Shown: positions 2,893-21,917 of the stretch, in pieces
How positions within the stretch are numbered: position 1 is the first letter of the stretch
Layout: every line of letters begins with the position of its first letter
The notes under the pieces: model-generated
Told to the model about the DNA's origin: nothing
Databases searched by the model: none
The model's input: the letters and a program-made list of their open reading frames with translations, nothing else
Virus record (IMG/VR): IMGVR_UViG_3300035698_001427
Location: 1 to 21,917 of that record
Source: a virus
Direction: 5' to 3' (one strand)
DNA length: 21,917 nt
Made by a program: the position numbers and the translations under genes

Positions 2893-3300
2893 TTAAGCTA
2901 GGCTGATTGTTAGGTTACCGCTTGATACCTGGAATGTATCGCCATTTTCAATAGTTTTAGAAGTTGTAACCGCGCCCCAGAACAATACGTTGCCTGCTGC
3001 TGATGCGTCCATAACAGCCACGTGGGTAATTGTTCCCCAGTTGCCTGTTGCCGCAGTAAATGTTACAGTAGAGTTAGTAGCCGCTGATCCACCACTTGCT
3101 CCTGCAAATGTTACTGTTTGACGTGAATAACTGTAGCCGGAAATTTCGTCTGTCAATGTGCCGGCTTCTAAATTAGATGCCGCGTTTGTTGAATCATTTG
3201 TAAATAATCCAAGGTAAAGTGTTGTTGCTGGAGTGTAATTTGCTCCTCCTAGAACATGGTTTAGTACTGCGTTTTCTGTGTAGTTTGATGCTGCTGACAT
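2893..3300 (-). CDS. Small phage structural protein (135 aa), fibre-associated
   Basis: The true start is most likely the ATG at 3300, giving 135 aa. It has an AGGAG site 6 bases upstream, while the longer frame starting at 3342 has no such site and adds 14 unlikely residues. The protein matches a widespread small phage structural family: opening NYTENAVLNHVLGG, then LYLGLFT, a SYSRQTVTFAG strand, NWGTITHVAVMDASAAGNVLFWGAV, and a closing strand GDTFQVSSGNLTISLA. Members are encoded beside tail fibre or hub genes and are thought to be virion components; their exact place in the particle is not well defined. The protein is all-beta, has no Cys, and lies just after the hub and before the fibre gene. 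Confidence 0.8.
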   Translation of the reverse strand: MSAASNYTENAVLNHVLGGANYTPATTLYLGLFTNDSTNAASNLEAGTLTDEISGYSYSRQTVTFAGASGGSAATNSTVTFTAATGNWGTITHVAVMDASAAGNVLFWGAVTTSKTIENGDTFQVSSGNLTISLA

Positions 3301-3334
3301 AATAATCTCCTGGTTGTAGTCTGCTTTTTTAATT

Positions 3335-3352
3335 ACAGACAATGCTGTCTGT
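3335..3352. repeat. Perfect inverted repeat ACAGACA-ATGC-TGTCTGT
   Basis: Seven-base perfect arms lie around a four-base loop in the 112-base gap upstream of the 135-aa gene. On the plus strand the repeat is followed by TTTTATT, so it could act as a weak terminator against rightward transcripts. On the minus strand it would form a hairpin in the leader of the fibre genes. It could also be a protein-binding site. Confidence 0.45.
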
Positions 3353-3412: not shown

Positions 3413-5257
3413 TTAATATCCTCTTAATACAGTTGTTGTGCCTGTAATTCTTGTGTTAGGATATTGCGAAGGTGTGTCAAACGATGTAATTATATTTACA
3501 TCAGTTCCACTTTGTCCGCTAGTTGTGTCAACATTAACTGTTGAACCAACAACAATTGCCGCACTACTTGTTCCTGCTCCTGTAACAGTTACTGCTGAAG
3601 GTACTGCTGTGCCACCTGCACTTGCTAATGCAAATGTCATTGTGCGTACTGAACTTAAACTTTTAAGATAGTTAGTGCTTGGGTCGTAACTTCCACACCA
3701 AGCAACTGGAACTGTTACTGTCCGGCAAGTGTTGTCAGGTGCTACATATGGTGGTGCACTTTCGTCATCAGCAACACTAATATCGGCAGTAAGATCTGGT
3801 GGACTAATTGCACACGGATCTTGATAGCCAGGGTCAAGTGTAAATGTTAAACTTTGTCCGCCTGTGTATACACCGTCATTGTTTGTTGTAATATCTATTG
3901 TTGCGCCACCGCTAGTAATTGTTACTGTGCCTGACAGTGATGGACTTGTTACTTTGCTACTTGCACTTCCGCTAATTGTATACGGAACAGTTGTGCCATC
4001 AGCAATGCCGGTTGTTGCAATTGTAATTGTTGATGTGCCACCTTCTGTAGTTGCTGTTGGATTTGCTGTTACACTGTCATATGTAAATGCCTTAGGTGAT
4101 TGGATAACAACATTGCTAGAGTTTTCACCACAAGTAAATGTTAATGTTTCGTATGTTATGTCACTATCTTCTGTAAGATCAAAAGCAATTGATCCTGTTT
4201 TACTTGTTATTTGCACTACCCCGGTTAACGGAATGCTAATGTCACTTGCGTCTATGCCTGTAATTGTATATGGGTATTCATAGTCTGGAGTAACAAAGTA
4301 ACAAGACTCACACTCATCTGTAAAGTTAATTGTTACACTGCCACCTTCGCATAATGCTGTTGTACTTGCACTATGTGTTAACGGTGGTTTCTTTGTGCTA
4401 CTTAAGAATTCTGTTAACTTTTCTGCTTCCTTAACTTCATCTGCTGTAAGTGCGCCTTCTGCTGTTGGATCTCCAAACAAACTTCCAAGCAAACTGTTAA
4501 ACATCTTAGCGGCGGCATTGGCTAATAGTAAACGACCAATACTTGCACCTGCGTCAATGTCATCACTTGCTTGTGCTTCTTCGTTCATTATTTTAGGAAC
4601 AATGCCATTGCGCTTGGTTCTTAGATCTCTTGTTAGATTTGATACATATACATCTGCATCATATTCTAATGCAGTAATGCTGTAGATTATTGCACCATCA
4701 TTATCGTCTTCTTCTTCAATTTGTATTACTCTAAACAATTTATTTGTGTAGTCATACATGATAGCAGTTACATCTATTAAATCACCTGCTTTTATACCGT
4801 TTGATGTAAAGTCACTTGCAAACTGTATAATTTTATCAACACGGTTTTGTTTAAGTTCTTGAGTTGCAATAATTTGTGCTTGTACTGGATCATTAATGCA
4901 AGTAAGTTTAATGTTTAATTGGTTATCAAGTTCCTCAGCAAATCTATCAGCAGTAGGTGTTGCTAAAGTAAGATAGTCAGTTGCGTCTCTAAGATCTCTG
5001 TGTGGATATTCTATTAGAACACTGTTGTATAATACATTAACTCCACTGCCGCCAACATTAATACTACCAAGTATATTTGAGTCATCAAAACTCTTAACGC
5101 TTGCACTTGGTTCATTAACAATAACAGCCCATTGTCCTAGACTAGGATCCCAAGTAACAAAGCACCCGGCACTAGTTGCTAGGAGTTCAATGTTGTCTAA
5201 TACATTATTGCTTGTATCTATAACACCGTTTATTTCAAATTTATTCTTACTAGCCAT
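3413..5257 (-). CDS. C-terminal part of J-like central tail hub with Calx-beta-like repeats (614 aa)
   Basis: Residues 6-50 (KFEINGVIDTSNNVLDNIEL, then FVTWDPSLGQWAVIVNEP) match the middle of J-like central tail/host-specificity proteins, where this segment normally follows the N-terminal hub domain in the same polypeptide. Residues 60-225 look like the next hub region (NVLYNSVLIEYPHRDLRD, QELKQNRVDKIIQF, GIKAGDLIDVT). After a linker (225-300), residues 304-376 and 404-496 look like Calx-beta or Ig-like repeats, each opening with an EGG strand, and 510-614 may be a third. The ATG at 5257 has an AAGGA site 7 bases upstream. No N-terminal hub domain is present here; it lies in the 255-aa gene, on the other side of the 826-aa gene. 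It probably assembles at the tail tip with both. Confidence 0.8.
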   Translation of the reverse strand: MASKNKFEINGVIDTSNNVLDNIELLATSAGCFVTWDPSLGQWAVIVNEPSASVKSFDDSNILGSINVGGSGVNVLYNSVLIEYPHRDLRDATDYLTLATPTADRFAEELDNQLNIKLTCINDPVQAQIIATQELKQNRVDKIIQFASDFTSNGIKAGDLIDVTAIMYDYTNKLFRVIQIEEEDDNDGAIIYSITALEYDADVYVSNLTRDLRTKRNGIVPKIMNEEAQASDDIDAGASIGRLLLANAAAKMFNSLLGSLFGDPTAEGALTADEVKEAEKLTEFLSSTKKPPLTHSASTTALCEGGSVTINFTDECESCYFVTPDYEYPYTITGIDASDISIPLTGVVQITSKTGSIAFDLTEDSDITYETLTFTCGENSSNVVIQSPKAFTYDSVTANPTATTEGGTSTITIATTGIADGTTVPYTISGSASSKVTSPSLSGTVTITSGGATIDITTNNDGVYTGGQSLTFTLDPGYQDPCAISPPDLTADISVADDESAPPYVAPDNTCRTVTVPVAWCGSYDPSTNYLKSLSSVRTMTFALASAGGTAVPSAVTVTGAGTSSAAIVVGSTVNVDTTSGQSGTDVNIITSFDTPSQYPNTRITGTTTVLRGY

Positions 5258-5270
5258 CTGTTAATCCTTA

Positions 5271-7751
5271 TTATTGTCTACGCACAATTTGCGTTTTAGA
5301 CTCTGTATTTAATTCCGGTGTAACTACATTATAATCAAGTCTTACATTGTATAAACTATTACTTGGAGTTGTTATTGTCATTGTTTCAATATCTTGATTA
5401 ACTTGCGACTTTGTTCCGGTTATTGTTAGTTTCTTTGTTGCTAGATCAAAATCTGCAGGCTTTGGTCCATATGAATGTATTTCCCACCCGTTAACATCAT
5501 CGCCAATTAAATATTTAGTACCGTCATTGTTTAGTGTAATGGATAACCCACTTGGTCCGAAGTTAGTTGGAGTAAAACTTCTAACATAAGTTAGTGTGTG
5601 TGTTGACTGATCAAAACTGTGTTCTTCAATTATTTCGTTTCCAAGACTGCGAATTAACACTGTTGATCCGTCATCACTTATTCGCATTTGGTATCCAAAC
5701 CTAGCATTATTTTCAGGCACCTGTGCTACAATTTGTGTAGATGAGCCCCATGAGCCACCGCTGTAATTGTATTGAAGTATTGCTCCGTCCTCAGTATATG
5801 ACACGTCTTTTCTTTCGTTAAATTGCCATAGTGTATTACTGTCTGCAGATAATAACACACTGCCTTGACCTACATTATTTGGTAGAGCTGGAATTGTATG
5901 TTCATAAGCCCAACTTGCACCGTTACGTTTGTAAATTTTTGTGTACCCATAACTACTAATGCCATCGTAATACGATGTTAGTGCAAATCTATTTCCGTTA
6001 GCAGAAACAGTTATGTCTTTCCATTGGTCAAACAGTACAGAACTGCCGTTAAATGTATTATCAACATTTACTACTGCAATGCGACTATAACTGCCACTAC
6101 CTGTTCTGGTCCACATCTCAGCAGTCATTTCATATGATCTATCCACGCCGTCTCCTCCGCTTCCGCCGCTACCAGCCTGGTTTACATGATTTGCAATTAC
6201 TAGTAGATCACCGTCTTCACTACTGTCCATCCTCCATCCAAACAAACCAGTATACCTGCCACTGCTATCTTGCCAACTAGTTTGACCAACTAGTGTTTGA
6301 TCTAAACTCCAAGTATTTAGTACAATATTTTTTTTGTATATGTAAACTCGTCCTGCACTATTTTCGGCACTGGGTGCGCCAATTATTAATGTGTTGTCAT
6401 CTGCAAATCTAATATTTTGACCAAAAGAGCTGCCTGCTGAACCAGTCAAGGTGTGTGTTTTAATCCAAGCACCGCTTTGTAAATTCCATATATCTACTTT
6501 ACCTTGGACATAACCGTTTACTAAATTAAACTGCCAACCAACTGCCACAAAGTCACTTGTGCTATTAAACACAAAACACGAGCCCTCACCCTCATCTTCT
6601 TCTCTAGAGTATAGTAGATCGCTAAAGGATTGATCTTCTCCCCATCTAATGATACCAGTAGTGGACATATTTGTTATTTGTGAAGGAGTAGTAGGAGTAG
6701 CTGTGTAAACATAATTTCCAGCGTTTATATAATCTGGATCTAATATGTTTGGAGCAACTGTGCCAAACACTGTTGGTACTCCTGGAGAATGGTATGCTAT
6801 TCCTCGTTGCTCAGACAAATAATCTATGTTTGAACAGTTGGCAGTATGTGTTGCCTGGTAAGCTCTATTTGTTAATTCTGTTGCGGTAGAAGTTGCTACA
6901 TAAGTTAACACAAAGTCTTCTTTTACTGACAAGTTAATCATTGACATATTATTAAGATGATAATTAACTTGTGTAAACGTTCCGCTAATTGTTAATACTT
7001 TAGTGGTGTTATTAAATCCAACACTGCCGCCACTAACTGTACTTGCTAATGTATCAATTATATTAATATTACTCGGAGTTACGGTTACTGTCCATGTTTC
7101 AGAATCTGTGTTTTCATAAATTAACTGCGGAGCACCTGTGATTTGATTGGTAGCATTTGCAAGCCAATCAACAGTAGTTGTGTCTGTAAATCCGCTTCTT
7201 GTTAATATTGCTTGATTAATAGTAAATGCACCTGTAAATGCTTGCTGTATCCCTGTAATTTTATTTGCGGTGATTGTACACAAAGATGTTGTTTCCATAA
7301 GTGAATCAGGAACAAACACTCCTATAGTCCATTGTTCTTGTAGATTTGATTGAGTATCAGTATCATATACAATTGATGGATTGTAATACACACTGCCAGC
7401 AAATCCAGCAGTTAGTGTTATTAATGGACTTTTAACAGCGTCCCAATCACTTACACTGTCTATACCGTAGAATGTATAAGTGTTTCCGCTTCTTATTAAT
7501 GTTACACCGGCAGGTAAAGACGGTAGAGTTACAGTGGCATATGTACTACCTACTTCAATTTGGTAGCGTATATTTGGATTGCCAATTATTTCAATTATGT
7601 TAATGCCTACAATAACATTGAACGACAGCGAAGTATCTGTAAACGTCTGATCTTTTGCTCTTGGTCTATCAAATATAACATTTGAAGGACGGTTGTCTGT
7701 AAACGACACAACTGTGTCACTTATTCCATTTAAGTAACTTAGACTATTCAT
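5271..7751 (-). CDS. Predicted beta-propeller tail-tip protein inserted in the hub locus (826 aa)
   Basis: I see no standard family over the full length. Residues 1-20 (MNSLSYLNGISDTVVSFTDN) read like the natural continuation of the 255-aa hub fragment. Residues 30-300 are beta-sandwich sequence. Residues about 380-762 hold FG-GAP-like blades: SSFGQNIRFADDNTLIIGAP with GRVYIYKK, GLFGWRMDSSEDGDLLVIA, ITVSANGNRFALTSYYDG, RFGYQMRISDDGSTVLIRS, and LSITLNNDGTKYLIGD. A repeat unit flanks the propeller: KVLTISGTFTQVNYHLNNMS at 251-270 and KKLTITGTKSQVNQDIETMT at 773-792; 92-112 may be a diverged third copy. The ATG overlaps the upstream stop as ATGA and has its own GGGGAG site. A receptor-binding role is inferred from fold type and position. 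Confidence 0.7.
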   Translation of the reverse strand: MNSLSYLNGISDTVVSFTDNRPSNVIFDRPRAKDQTFTDTSLSFNVIVGINIIEIIGNPNIRYQIEVGSTYATVTLPSLPAGVTLIRSGNTYTFYGIDSVSDWDAVKSPLITLTAGFAGSVYYNPSIVYDTDTQSNLQEQWTIGVFVPDSLMETTSLCTITANKITGIQQAFTGAFTINQAILTRSGFTDTTTVDWLANATNQITGAPQLIYENTDSETWTVTVTPSNINIIDTLASTVSGGSVGFNNTTKVLTISGTFTQVNYHLNNMSMINLSVKEDFVLTYVATSTATELTNRAYQATHTANCSNIDYLSEQRGIAYHSPGVPTVFGTVAPNILDPDYINAGNYVYTATPTTPSQITNMSTTGIIRWGEDQSFSDLLYSREEDEGEGSCFVFNSTSDFVAVGWQFNLVNGYVQGKVDIWNLQSGAWIKTHTLTGSAGSSFGQNIRFADDNTLIIGAPSAENSAGRVYIYKKNIVLNTWSLDQTLVGQTSWQDSSGRYTGLFGWRMDSSEDGDLLVIANHVNQAGSGGSGGDGVDRSYEMTAEMWTRTGSGSYSRIAVVNVDNTFNGSSVLFDQWKDITVSANGNRFALTSYYDGISSYGYTKIYKRNGASWAYEHTIPALPNNVGQGSVLLSADSNTLWQFNERKDVSYTEDGAILQYNYSGGSWGSSTQIVAQVPENNARFGYQMRISDDGSTVLIRSLGNEIIEEHSFDQSTHTLTYVRSFTPTNFGPSGLSITLNNDGTKYLIGDDVNGWEIHSYGPKPADFDLATKKLTITGTKSQVNQDIETMTITTPSNSLYNVRLDYNVVTPELNTESKTQIVRRQ

Positions 7752-8515
7752 TGACTGTAAATCTCCCCTGTACTGATGCCGGCGCCGTATCGTGTATTGG
7801 TCATATAATCAAACAATACATCTCCTGGCTTCTTCATTGTATTAGATACCTTAAATTGCAAATTACCTAATCCTGTAATTTTATTCTTGGCATTGTATTC
7901 TACTTTAACTAAGCAAAAGATTAAGTCGTTCATGTTATGGTTAGTAGTCCAATTAGGAAACAAGTTGTAAGCCGCTGTTGAGTTTCCTCCATTTTCAGTT
8001 GTTAACTGTGCTGGTGAATCGCTATTGCCATTAAATGGATAAACTTTTAATAATCCACTCCATTTGTCAGTGCTGTTGGCTTCTTCGTCATATGCAAGAT
8101 CAACAGTAACGCCGTCGCTTTTGAAGTCTAGTCTAAGGCCGTCCATGTAAACTTCTTTAAAGCTAAATGCACTAGCAGTACCGTCAATAAGGTTGCCTGT
8201 CTTTTCACTAAGTGTTACACAGAACCACATATGTGTATTGTTACCAATAAGTTCTGCATCTGTAACAACTCCGCCAACAAAAGCATCACCATATATTACT
8301 GGTACACTATTAGTTGTGTCTGGACTAACTGTTACACGACTGCCTGTATCTGCGGCTGCTTGTGCGGCATCTGCACTTTTTCTAATACTGTCACTAACCT
8401 TCTTTAAGGCTAATCCGTATAGTGCTGTTTTGGCTAAACTTGATCCAAGGCTATTACTTTTTAAGAAGCCACCAACGCCTTTTGCTATGCTGCCTAATGT
8501 ACTTAAGAAACTCAT
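7748..8515 (-). CDS. N-terminal part of J-like central tail hub (255 aa)
   Basis: This looks like the front third of a J-like central tail protein. After an Ala/Ser-rich start, residues about 60-105 carry the family signature (VSPDTTNSVPVIYGDAFVGG, VVTDAEL, then MWFCVTLSEKTG), followed by FKEVYMDGLRL. The end (MKKPGDVLFDYMTNTRYGAG) is where J-like proteins usually run straight on into the next hub domain, but here a TGA stops the frame at 7748. The ATG at 8515 overlaps the preceding stop as ATGA and has a GGAG site. The downstream gene starts at the stop in an ATGA overlap. The expected C-terminal two thirds is encoded by the 614-aa gene about 2.5 kb further on. A sequencing indel alone would not explain the separation. 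Confidence 0.8.
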   Translation of the reverse strand: MSFLSTLGSIAKGVGGFLKSNSLGSSLAKTALYGLALKKVSDSIRKSADAAQAAADTGSRVTVSPDTTNSVPVIYGDAFVGGVVTDAELIGNNTHMWFCVTLSEKTGNLIDGTASAFSFKEVYMDGLRLDFKSDGVTVDLAYDEEANSTDKWSGLLKVYPFNGNSDSPAQLTTENGGNSTAAYNLFPNWTTNHNMNDLIFCLVKVEYNAKNKITGLGNLQFKVSNTMKKPGDVLFDYMTNTRYGAGISTGEIYSQ

Positions 8516-9111
8516 TGTGGTGCTCCAAAGTTAAAGGATGCATCTTTTAAGTTAGGTACTCTATCAAAGCTAACATCTGTTGAATAGTATTGTTTCATAC
8601 TTTGTGGATTTGTCTTTCGTCCTGCTATCTTACTACTTAATATATCCACGTTTGACAAGCACTCAATCTGGAGACTGTTTGAAGCAGTTCTTGCACCAAC
8701 GTCATACTCTTCATCAAGACTGTAATTGTTAACAGTGCCAATGTAACGTCCTTGTGTTGTTCCAATTTGTGTGCCACTTGTTGCATGGAAGTATGCACGG
8801 TAGATCTTAACCGGTGAACCTTTAATTTTACTGTAAATTATTTCAGCAATGCTACTGTCTGGAATGCCGCTGAGTGTAATTGTAATTGTATTTGAACTTG
8901 ATCTAAGTTCACTTGAACTTGATGTAATGTTTAATAAACTTCCAATTGGAACATATGATTCTGCATCAATAGTAAATGTTGCGTCATGGTCACTAAATGT
9001 TAACACTTCGTTTGCAAACGATGCGCCAGTTGTTGCTTTGTATTCAGCAACGTCAATTCTAACAAATAGTGATGTTCTAACTGCTTGTGAACTTGTTAAG
9101 TCTACACTCAT
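8512..9111 (-). CDS. Minor tail protein, gpL/DUF2163-like tail tip protein (199 aa)
   Basis: The order tape measure, 126 aa, this gene, hub corresponds to the lambda order H, M, L, (K, I), J. The beta-rich body (LTFSDHDATFTIDAESYVPI, SNTITITLSGIP, a YRAYF strand and a GRYIGTVNNYSLDE hairpin) fits tail-tip proteins of the gpL or DUF2163 type, which join the tail tube to the central hub. The C-terminus (SFDRVPNLKDASFNFGAP) has the VP-x-L ending followed by a Gly-aromatic segment seen in that group. I see no Cys cluster of the kind that binds an iron-sulphur cluster in lambda gpL. The ATG at 9111 has a GAGGTG site within the end of the previous gene. Assignment is by context and motif. Confidence 0.6.
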   Translation of the reverse strand: MSVDLTSSQAVRTSLFVRIDVAEYKATTGASFANEVLTFSDHDATFTIDAESYVPIGSLLNITSSSSELRSSSNTITITLSGIPDSSIAEIIYSKIKGSPVKIYRAYFHATSGTQIGTTQGRYIGTVNNYSLDEEYDVGARTASNSLQIECLSNVDILSSKIAGRKTNPQSMKQYYSTDVSFDRVPNLKDASFNFGAPQ

Positions 9112-9499: not shown

Positions 9500-11920
9500 T
9501 TATCTCCTTCTTGGTGACGCACTTGCGCCCTTGTTTGCTACTGCGTGTATAAAGCCTGGATCGGCTGCAACTAACTCCTTAAAGCTTCTTGCATCAACAG
9601 CATTAATATTATATGTAACTGCACCGCTGCCTAAATTAGGTGTTACATTTGCAGGACCACTTACTAGTTCAGGTCCATTTTCTCCAACAACACCAAAGCG
9701 TCCTGGAGGTATCATTCCGCCAGTTGCAAAGAAGCCTCCAAACAATCCACCTCCTTGACTACCAACTGTTCCTGTTCCGCCACCTAGTGCTGGTAGTTGG
9801 AATATACTTGCCATACTCTGTTGTATCTGTGCTCTAAGTAAATCCTCTAATAGACTTGCAACAAAGCTCTTAAATTCAAACTTACCAGTTTTAGCAAAGT
9901 TAACAATCATGTCCTCCATGCCCTTGGTTGTTTTAGCAAATACTTGTTCAGCACGTTTGGCTGCATTAGTTGCATTGTCTTCGTATTCTTCAAACGCTTT
10001 CTTCCAACCACTGCTAAATGTGCTTTGTGATTTTATTTCTAAATCAATTGCTTCCTGTGTCTGTTTGGCTGCTTGTTGTCTTGCAGTAATAGTTGAACGT
10101 GCTGTTACTTCTACACTAGCAAGTGCGTCTTTTAACTTTGTAGCATCAGCATCGCCAAATTGTGTTTTAATGCGTTCTTGTGCTGTACGCATTAATTTTA
10201 ATTCGTCTAATTCAATTTGTTTTAGTTGACGACTAATGCCGGTTAATCCAGCAAGACTTACATCATTAAATGCATCTGTAACACGTTCTACTGCACTAAC
10301 TGTGTTTTGATTTAAGTAATCTGTAAGTTCTGTTGAAGTTTTATTAACAGCGTCTAGTGTATTGTTTAGTCGCTGCATTGCGGCTTCATACACTTCTGGG
10401 GCAATCTTACCTTCTGCAAATGCCACACTTAATTTTTCAACAGCCCGTTGAGCAAAGCCTAATTCATTTACACTAGATTGTGCATCTTTAATTAGATTGT
10501 CATAAAATCCTTGAGCTGTTGAAGTTTTAGTAACAGCCTCTCCTAATTTTTTAACTTGTTCAGTTAACTGTTCATGACGTGTTTTTGCAGTTGCAATTTT
10601 TTCATTTAAGTCTGGAATAAAGGATCCAGCATAAGTGCCAGTTAATGCTGTTAATTCTTCTAGTGCTTTCTTAGCGGCTGTTTGTGCTTCAGTTGCTTTA
10701 ACTAAAGAACTTTTGCCACGTTCATTAGCTTTGACCATTTCATCAATACTTGCTAACAAGTCTTTATACGGTTTTAATGTTGCCTCTGTAACTTTTCTTT
10801 TTTCTTCTAACTGTTTAAGTTCTAATTTAGTTGATTCTCCTAATACATTTTGTTGGCGAACTTGTTCTTGTAATGCTGAAGAATAATTATTGTATTGTTC
10901 AATCGTTAGACCTAATAGTTTTAATTGAGCTTTTAGAGTGTTATTGTGTCCTGCAAGTCTAAGACCAAACACGTCAGTTGCGTCGCCGGATTGCAACTCG
11001 TTAATTTTAGCAAGTAACTTTACGGCTGCTTCTGTGTCAATATTAAATTCTTTAAGTCTTTCAATTGCAGTGCCAAGGCTTTCGTCATTAACTAAGTTTT
11101 CAAAACTAGCGGCTTCTAAACTAGTGCTTGCTCCAGCCACTTCGCGCATTCCACGTGCAAGGTCTTCTAATACACTTCTATAAAGATCTGCCGCACCTGA
11201 GTTTTCAGCAAATACTACTAGTAACTTACTAAATGCATCACTAACTTCTTGTTCAAGTTGTGTAATTGTTTTGCTAGTTGCTTGAAATGCCGCTTGTATT
11301 GCTTCACTTCCTTCAACCATCTTAAAGAACGATTCAGCAGTTAACTCACCGGCTTGTGACATCTTACGAAGTTCACCAACTGTTATACCACTCTCACGTG
11401 CCATAATAATTAACGCTGGGCCTAGTGCTTCAACAATACTATTAAATTCATCACCACGCACTGTGCCTGATGCCATTGCTTGACCAAACTGTCTAATAGC
11501 GCCTGCGGCAGTGCCAGCATCAGCACCAGATATAGCAAGTGCTTTCTGGAAGTTGCCTGTAACTTTTAATACTTGGTCTTGACTAACACCTAGTTCTTCA
11601 GTTGCAAGTGTTAATTTAGTATACAAGTCAATTGTGTCACCAAAGGCAGCACGGTTGGCAACTGCGGCATTGTTTAACTTCTGCATTGTATCAGACAGTT
11701 CTTGTTGACTGTCTGTAATTAAACTTAAACTATTGCGATAAGATTCAAATTCACCTGTTGCGTTTTTCATTGCCCCGGCAAACTTTGTTATGGCTGCAAT
11801 GCTAAATGCCGCAGCCATTAATGGACCTAAGCCTTTAAGACTTGTTGCAAATCCACCAACACCGGCTGTTGCGCTCTTGGTGTCAACTATTAACTTATAT
11901 CTGTCTATTGTTGTTGCCAT
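9500..11920 (-). CDS. Tail tape measure protein (806 aa)
   Basis: It sets tail length and is probably involved in DNA delivery. Residues about 60-230 match the tape-measure N-terminal domain: FESYRNSLSLIT, then AISGADAGTAAGAIRQFGQA, MASGTVRGDEFNSIVEALGP, and LTAESFFKMVEGSEAIQAAF. The middle (about 230-690) is long alpha-helical, coiled-coil sequence rich in Ala, Glu, Lys and Gln. The C-terminus is of lambda gpH type: EFKSFVASLLEDLLRAQIQQ, a Gly-rich hinge (GGGLFGGFFATGG, 723-735), and PPGRFGVVGENGPELVSGPA (738-757). A hydrophobic segment near residues 30-50 may be membrane-active. By the usual scaling of about 0.15 nm per residue, 806 aa suggests a tail of about 120 nm. The ATG at 11920 has an AAGGT site. 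Confidence 0.95.
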   Translation of the reverse strand: MATTIDRYKLIVDTKSATAGVGGFATSLKGLGPLMAAAFSIAAITKFAGAMKNATGEFESYRNSLSLITDSQQELSDTMQKLNNAAVANRAAFGDTIDLYTKLTLATEELGVSQDQVLKVTGNFQKALAISGADAGTAAGAIRQFGQAMASGTVRGDEFNSIVEALGPALIIMARESGITVGELRKMSQAGELTAESFFKMVEGSEAIQAAFQATSKTITQLEQEVSDAFSKLLVVFAENSGAADLYRSVLEDLARGMREVAGASTSLEAASFENLVNDESLGTAIERLKEFNIDTEAAVKLLAKINELQSGDATDVFGLRLAGHNNTLKAQLKLLGLTIEQYNNYSSALQEQVRQQNVLGESTKLELKQLEEKRKVTEATLKPYKDLLASIDEMVKANERGKSSLVKATEAQTAAKKALEELTALTGTYAGSFIPDLNEKIATAKTRHEQLTEQVKKLGEAVTKTSTAQGFYDNLIKDAQSSVNELGFAQRAVEKLSVAFAEGKIAPEVYEAAMQRLNNTLDAVNKTSTELTDYLNQNTVSAVERVTDAFNDVSLAGLTGISRQLKQIELDELKLMRTAQERIKTQFGDADATKLKDALASVEVTARSTITARQQAAKQTQEAIDLEIKSQSTFSSGWKKAFEEYEDNATNAAKRAEQVFAKTTKGMEDMIVNFAKTGKFEFKSFVASLLEDLLRAQIQQSMASIFQLPALGGGTGTVGSQGGGLFGGFFATGGMIPPGRFGVVGENGPELVSGPANVTPNLGSGAVTYNINAVDARSFKELVAADPGFIHAVANKGASASPRRR

Positions 11921-21555: not shown

Positions 21556-21917
21556 TTATTTTATCCCATTTGCATTTATTCTACAACTAATGAACTCATT
21601 GTAGTAGGTGTCATCGTACAACACGTTTAAGTCAAATTGCAGTTTGGTTTCCCAATATGCCATCATTGTCTTGTTTGCACATAAGTGCAGGATCTCTCGT
21701 GTTATTGTATGTGGTTCAAGTTTCTCAATGTCTGCACTGAGTCTCTTGCTGCTTCCATAATACCCTTGCCAATTGGTTTCCACACGACTATGTCGCTTAT
21801 TAGACTTACCTTTGAGGGGTTTGCGTTTGAGGATGCTCCACAAGTTCTTCTTACCTATATACTTCATTCCTGTTGAAGTGTTAGTAATGCAATAAACAAA
21901 CCCTTGATATTCTTCAG
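21556..21917 (-). CDS. GIY-YIG-type nuclease, 5' end beyond the window
   Basis: The frame is open through the right edge of the window. Although an ATG exists at 21867, the codons before it (21868-21915) encode EEYQGFVYCITNTSTG, and reading through gives GFVYCITNTSTGMKYIGKK, the GIY-YIG core (VY...YIG). The ATG is therefore internal and the real start lies outside. After the core come a Lys-rich segment (KRKPLKGKSNKR), WQGYYGSSKRLSADIEKL and the conserved region TREILHLCANKTMMAYWETK with the Glu expected for the GIY-YIG active site. Similar compact proteins are common free-standing nucleases in T4-like and other marine phages, often called Seg-like homing endonucleases. Whether this one homes or does other DNA work cannot be told. 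Confidence 0.85.
   Translation of the reverse strand, partial: EEYQGFVYCITNTSTGMKYIGKKNLWSILKRKPLKGKSNKRHSRVETNWQGYYGSSKRLSADIEKLEPHTITREILHLCANKTMMAYWETKLQFDLNVLYDDTYYNEFISCRINANGIK

Follow-up and report, generated by a model that had tools for sequence, protein, structure and literature searches.

The locus raises the question of why a large adhesin-like gene should lie between two genes that each resemble part of a baseplate hub, and whether the three products could belong to a single structure at the tail tip. The window, i.e. the whole stretch of 21,917 bp analyzed here, is an IMG/VR record that covers part of a siphophage-like genome, the structural genes of which are on the minus strand. 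The gene order is that typical of hubs: an 806-aa tape measure protein (9500-11920; PF20155, PF09718), a 126-aa protein in the distal tail position, a 199-aa tail protein of the lambda L-like or hub attachment type (8512-9111; phrog_2048, 1.6e-18; PF09931 at 23.5 bits, under the cut-off of 26) and then the three genes in question, termed A, B and C. A (255 aa; 7748-8515) is the N-terminal part of the hub, with a hydrophobic N-terminus followed by the hub region, and ends just past an RYGAG motif. B (826 aa; 5271-7751) is the inserted adhesin-like protein. C (614 aa; 3413-5257) supplies the rest of the hub, with the hub core in its residues 1-226 (4580-5257; alignment A5) and a C-terminal β-rich region. 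All of these features, and those within B and at the gene junctions given below, are on the minus strand.

A profile of 517 positions built from intact hubs matches A at positions 1-262 and C at positions 279-506: the two matches are adjacent and do not overlap. The same tiling is seen in 15 other split records, and a search with this profile for a further hub copy in the window and these 15 records found none. In the isolated phage P19250A the A- and C-like regions both lie, in order, within one protein of 1099 aa, which matches A residues 58-252 and then C residues 2-204 with 25 residues between them. The proposal of the preliminary description that the 255-aa and 614-aa proteins are parts of one hub is thus borne out, and the uninterrupted relatives that it called for exist in the form of P19250A and some 70 single-ORF viral contigs. 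All three frames, A, B and C, are under purifying selection. Approximately 16 hub positions, comprising a helix and a strand, are present in neither A nor C.

To which hubs these parts belong is indicated by profile A6, made with the intact relatives, which in the PDB matches T5 pb3 (6.7e-20, over pb3 264-718) and the DT57C hub (8.7e-20); since A and C are homologous to the intact relatives, this match relates both of them to a solved hub. A model of the intact relative L121 (residues 1-520) likewise retrieves with Foldseek the hubs of T5/DT57C (pb3), lambda (J), T1, RcGTA, Chi and JBD30 (8hqz, 1.7e-22; 7zhj, 3.8e-22; lambda 8k35, 2.3e-19). A, the N-terminus of B and C together are a hub of the T5 pb3/lambda J type, with a fold predicted from the L121 model. 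The T5 pb3/lambda J core is a single polypeptide, whereas here it is distributed over three ORFs; because lambda and RcGTA have their hubs cut at other places, we regard this core as a variant of the type rather than as a non-member.

Profile scans with A listed at least about 150 relatives of the hub among viral contigs; these are at most the best 80 loci of each scan (328 relatives were matched in one of them), and hence the locus counts that follow are not estimates of abundance. Among the matches listed, A and C lie in a single ORF at 75 loci and in different ORFs at 53, with 27 more loci ending before C. The A-C spacing of the single-ORF loci is 20-32 residues in 74 of the 75. The exception is Pelagibacter phage Kolga EXVC016S (L009, 3839-8008), whose hub has some 300 residues inserted in cis; we rejected it as a case of the insert in cis, as the insertion is elsewhere, before a DYLTNKVYG motif. 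At 50 of the 53 split loci, the window included, 550-1364 aa separate A and C. The other three (L067, L130 and L148) are split without an insert, in the arrangement A followed by linker plus C: the second gene opens with the linker, at profile position 257-259 in L067 and L148, and continues straight into C in L130 and L148. Named relatives are Methylophilaceae and Pelagibacter phages for A and, weakly, Providencia and Salmonella phages for C. Searches for members of the split group in GTDB genomes and, with three A queries, among isolates found none; a single-sequence scan with B gave no match, and a tblastn search of phages with B yielded nothing beyond a weak propeller match, in Vibrio phage nt-1. 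Two loci (L106:10944-12968 and L126:8078-9970) have an extra in-frame insertion of ~200 residues in C near hub-core position 50, which from these sequences appears to be a second insertion site. At L015:9472-11370 C is in two broken frames in a contig with ambiguous bases, probably a sequencing error.

The segment absent from A and C is found at the N-terminus of B, whose residues 1-20 (MNSLSYLNGISDTVVSFTDN; 7692-7751) constitute what we term the hub anchor. In the L121 model the A-C linker forms a helix (258-268) and a strand (272-276), after which the chain turns into the opening strand of C (280-284). B proteins open with M-x-S-L-x-x-L-N-x-(Y/F) at the A stop, with the conserved L-N in the same register as in the intact hubs (L in 100% and N in 92% of the intact hubs; 97% and 100% in B). 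A linker profile built solely from intact linkers was scored on ORF starts with matched controls: the 71 B N-termini have a median of 11.9 bits, with 47 of them at 8 bits or more, compared to -1.1 bits for 923 other ORF starts and -0.8 bits for shuffled B starts. Two of the 923 reach 8 bits, both of them second inserted genes with their own anchor (L118 and L014). Scored on 15,579 ORFs over their full length, a linker profile had too little power (E<0.01 in 12 of 80 loci). The N-terminus of the window's own B scores a modest 6.1 bits; hence, the earlier suggestion that the first 20 residues of B are the missing hub linker holds by virtue of the family and not of the window sequence alone. Directly after the anchor strand, B proteins have a D-N-R-P-x-x-V-x-F-D-R motif absent from intact hubs, which probably marks the point where the stalk leaves the hub. 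Constraint on B is strongest in residues 1-25 (dN 0.05-0.07, dS 0.8-1.0). The N-terminal helix has a pLDDT of ~60 in a model of the window B, as would be expected of a piece modeled without its partner, and is no proof of the pairing. At three loci (L014:2751-4390, L118:1312-4085 and L154:6627-7993, the last in a contig that ends before C) A is followed by two inserted genes in succession, both of which have an anchor of their own; the first is short (133-144 aa).

The AlphaFold2 model of the window B (mean pLDDT 79) has a short helix, Ig-like sandwiches, a propeller and closing Ig strands. This suggests a hub anchor followed by an Ig-like β-sandwich stalk (approximately residues 24-380; 6612-7682) and a β-propeller head (approximately residues 390-769; 5445-6584) predicted to be nested in the last Ig-like domain, the closing strands of which would map to 5274-5444. 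In the model the head has about seven blades by strand count, with a four-stranded blade pattern at residues 392-769. Solved propellers are the top structural matches of B (Foldseek TM to target 0.73 with Sec12); against PF14312 (FG-GAP_2) the window head scores 20.9 bits with a cut-off of 23, and the homologous head of L143 168.6 bits. A Foldseek search of B against viral models recovered many proteins with a propeller and Ig domains and no match on a hub. The description of the insert as an 826-aa propeller therefore stands for its head but not for the whole of B, which in addition has the anchor and the modeled stalk. At L110:1450-5532 a B of 1360 aa has segments matching the stalk of the window B more than once.

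The first ~120-200 residues are common to the window B and most B proteins, and the distal parts differ: the head domains in 42 B proteins include FG-GAP_2 (12), Gly_rich_2 (12), DUF285 (4) and Laminin_G_3 (4). The hubs of L094 and L096 are 87% identical in A and 96% in C, with B alike over residues 1-171 only and a glycine-rich head in one against a propeller in the other; in L083 and L091 B is alike over residues 1-177 only; and L144 and L150, with hubs ~90% identical, have nothing detectable in common in B. Near-identical hubs with unrelated heads (L094/L096, L144/L150) confirm that the inserted module is swappable, as had been supposed, and judging from these sequences the exchange seems to have been recent in places. 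Between the window and L001 the DNA identity is 93-94% in A and C against 76% in B, and within B change is slow in the first 25 residues (dN 0.07, dS 0.82) and rapid in the head (dN 0.34). Mapped on the hub tree, head class shows no significant clustering: it changes 14 times, compared to a mean of 16.2 after shuffling, and 33 of 300 shuffles give as few changes. B is an exchangeable adhesin-type protein, and its position, fast evolution and head exchange suggest that it binds a receptor.

The reading that we favor, and hold to be probable, is that A, B and C make up one hub in separately started chains that co-assemble, with the N-terminus of B filling the gap in the hub and so presenting an exchangeable adhesin. 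Its basis is the homology, the adjacency, the missing segment, its conservation and the exchange of heads documented above; we infer from the whole the co-assembly itself, translational restart, co-folding, trimer stoichiometry and receptor binding by the head. Translation of A would end at its stop, with ribosomes restarting at B via the overlapping codons and SD-like motifs, and C would be translated from its own site. A would give the N-terminal part of the hub and the first ~20 residues of B the helix and strand between A and C; B would then exit the hub at the tip of a β-hairpin and run on as the Ig-like stalk with its exchangeable head, here a propeller, with C re-entering at the next strand to give the remaining hub. 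In this manner A, the B anchor and C would co-fold as a pseudo-monomer, three of which would form the hub at the tail tip, with the stalks and heads of B pointing outwards from the hairpin tips. As the anchor of B would complete the hub, we propose that B is held noncovalently, with no peptide bond.

The gene junctions bear on whether the chains are indeed separate. The A stop and the B start share an ATGA overlap (7748-7751) that is found in most relatives, others having TAATG or 8-nt overlaps and L118 a short gap. AGGGGAG, a possible ribosome-binding site of B, lies within A (7763-7769), and AAGGA, the ribosome-binding site of C, lies 7 nt ahead of its ATG (5265-5269); that there is such a site at either junction had been pointed out in the preliminary description. 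SD-like motifs precede B at 60 of 66 loci and C at 46 of 50 starts, as against 17% of random ATGs, and B and C are kept apart by a stop and an intergenic gap. It is very unlikely that programmed frameshifting or read-through instead yields one chain, with a large domain built covalently into the hub: a -1 shift at the ATGA overlap would restore the hub register, but no slippery heptamer was found at the A/B junction of the window, and we reject this mechanism because the slippery site is absent and the junction geometry varies, with the SD-like motifs and the separation of B from C also speaking against it. The oddness of the locus might by itself evoke a hub gene in decay or an artefact of sequencing or assembly, but the chance of this is close to negligible, as dozens of independent contigs, at identities as low as ~40%, show the same arrangement, with A, B and C under purifying selection. 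The same selection, along with the independent contigs of L001, L002 (94% in A) and L003 (~50%), which have the same three ORFs and junction as the window, excludes the assembly error at the stop at 7748 that had earlier been considered.

An improbable alternative would make B an ordinary separate tail fibre in a split hub, with A and C complete alone and the linker-like N-terminus of B left over. Fibre genes often adjoin hub genes, the outer parts of B are typical adhesin domains and some genomes have two B genes. However, by the dN and dS given above nothing in B is under tighter constraint than the supposed remnant, which conserves the residues that the intact hub conserves, in matching register, and which both inserted genes of L014 and L118 have. 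The contrast between a tightly constrained anchor and a rapidly changing head favors co-assembly of the three chains. On the other side, the anchor of 20 residues is short, and the two-insert loci L014, L118 and L154 can be reconciled with one slot per protomer only by a further assumption. It is conceivable, albeit doubtful, that the hub has an open slot fillable by any protein with the anchor M-x-S-L-x-x-L-N-x-Y ... T-D-N-R, for which the two cassettes of these three loci would compete; this would amount to a noncovalent plug-in system for tail-tip adhesins, in which phages with two cassettes would have tips of mixed composition and might use more than one receptor. If the co-assembled hub is the correct reading, a phage would be able to replace the entire gene for its host-binding module at the center of the tail tip, with the hub not rebuilt, by means of ~20 residues that complete it in trans. 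The succession of A, anchor-bearing B and C would then be a sequence handle for the adhesin in hundreds of uncultivated phages, and hub assembly by complementation becomes directly testable.

The entry of a large module had been thought to split the hub gene into three separately started proteins. Three separately started genes are what is found, but the split is not tied to the insertion: the insert-free split hubs (L067, L130 and L148) imply that the cut at the anchor start and the cassette are separable events. The hub gene may have been split first with the cassette coming later, or the cassette may have been lost in the insert-free loci. In a quick tree the intact hubs form a large outside group, and the window's group of 46 hubs has 36 split with an insert, three split without and seven intact. 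That the split arose only once is not rejected (p-AU 0.467); with the seven intact hubs nested among the split ones, gain and loss are not orderable.

Compared to T5 pb3, which has the same core and fold in a single chain (PMC10038345), the window hub has its core divided among three genes, and an adhesin-like protein would exit at the hairpin between the parts. The closest precedents for a hub that is divided among genes and has another gene between its parts are lambda, in which gpL, gpI and gpJ together correspond to pb3 and gene I is at the place of the plug domain, and RcGTA, in which a pb3-like hub is similarly spread over g13, g14 and g15 (PMC10721106, PMC7296036). The window cut is further downstream than that of lambda, inside the single chain of lambda J, and the protein between the parts differs in being large, variable and adhesin-like and in itself carrying a hub helix and strand. 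The nearest isolated relative of A and C, the host specificity protein J of Methylophilaceae phage P19250A (KX815270), is unsplit and without an insert, with the linker in cis. A hub over several genes is thus already known, and what is new is the position of the cut and the kind of protein between the parts; no description of this cut was found in the literature searched, which was mostly outside subscription papers.

In phages that infect Gram-positive bacteria, Dit/Tal tail-tip proteins have carbohydrate-binding insertions in their loops. These too are binding modules in tail-tip loops, but, unlike B, they are part of the same chain. A propeller is the host-binding head at the siphophage tip in the staphylococcal phages phi11 and 80alpha (PMC4901313, PMC7048315); these propellers are separate receptor-binding proteins, and the likeness to B considered here is one of head type and proposed place.

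Other genes of the window deserve mention. The tape measure protein is exactly 806 aa in both the window and L001 (4596-7016), with the C-terminal ~180 residues near-identical and most of the N-terminal half unalignable, a pattern that in these sequences looks like mosaic exchange with the length kept. A SegE-like GIY-YIG endonuclease (21556-21915; PF19835, 2.3e-30) is cut off by the window end. A Gp80-like protein (2893-3342; PF23140) is listed from a TTG, with an internal ATG (MSAASNYTENAVLNH) being the likelier start. A 610-aa protein (399-2231) has a Laminin_G_3 domain (PF13385); since this domain is also the head of some inserted B proteins, heads may be common to fibre genes and the hub cassette.
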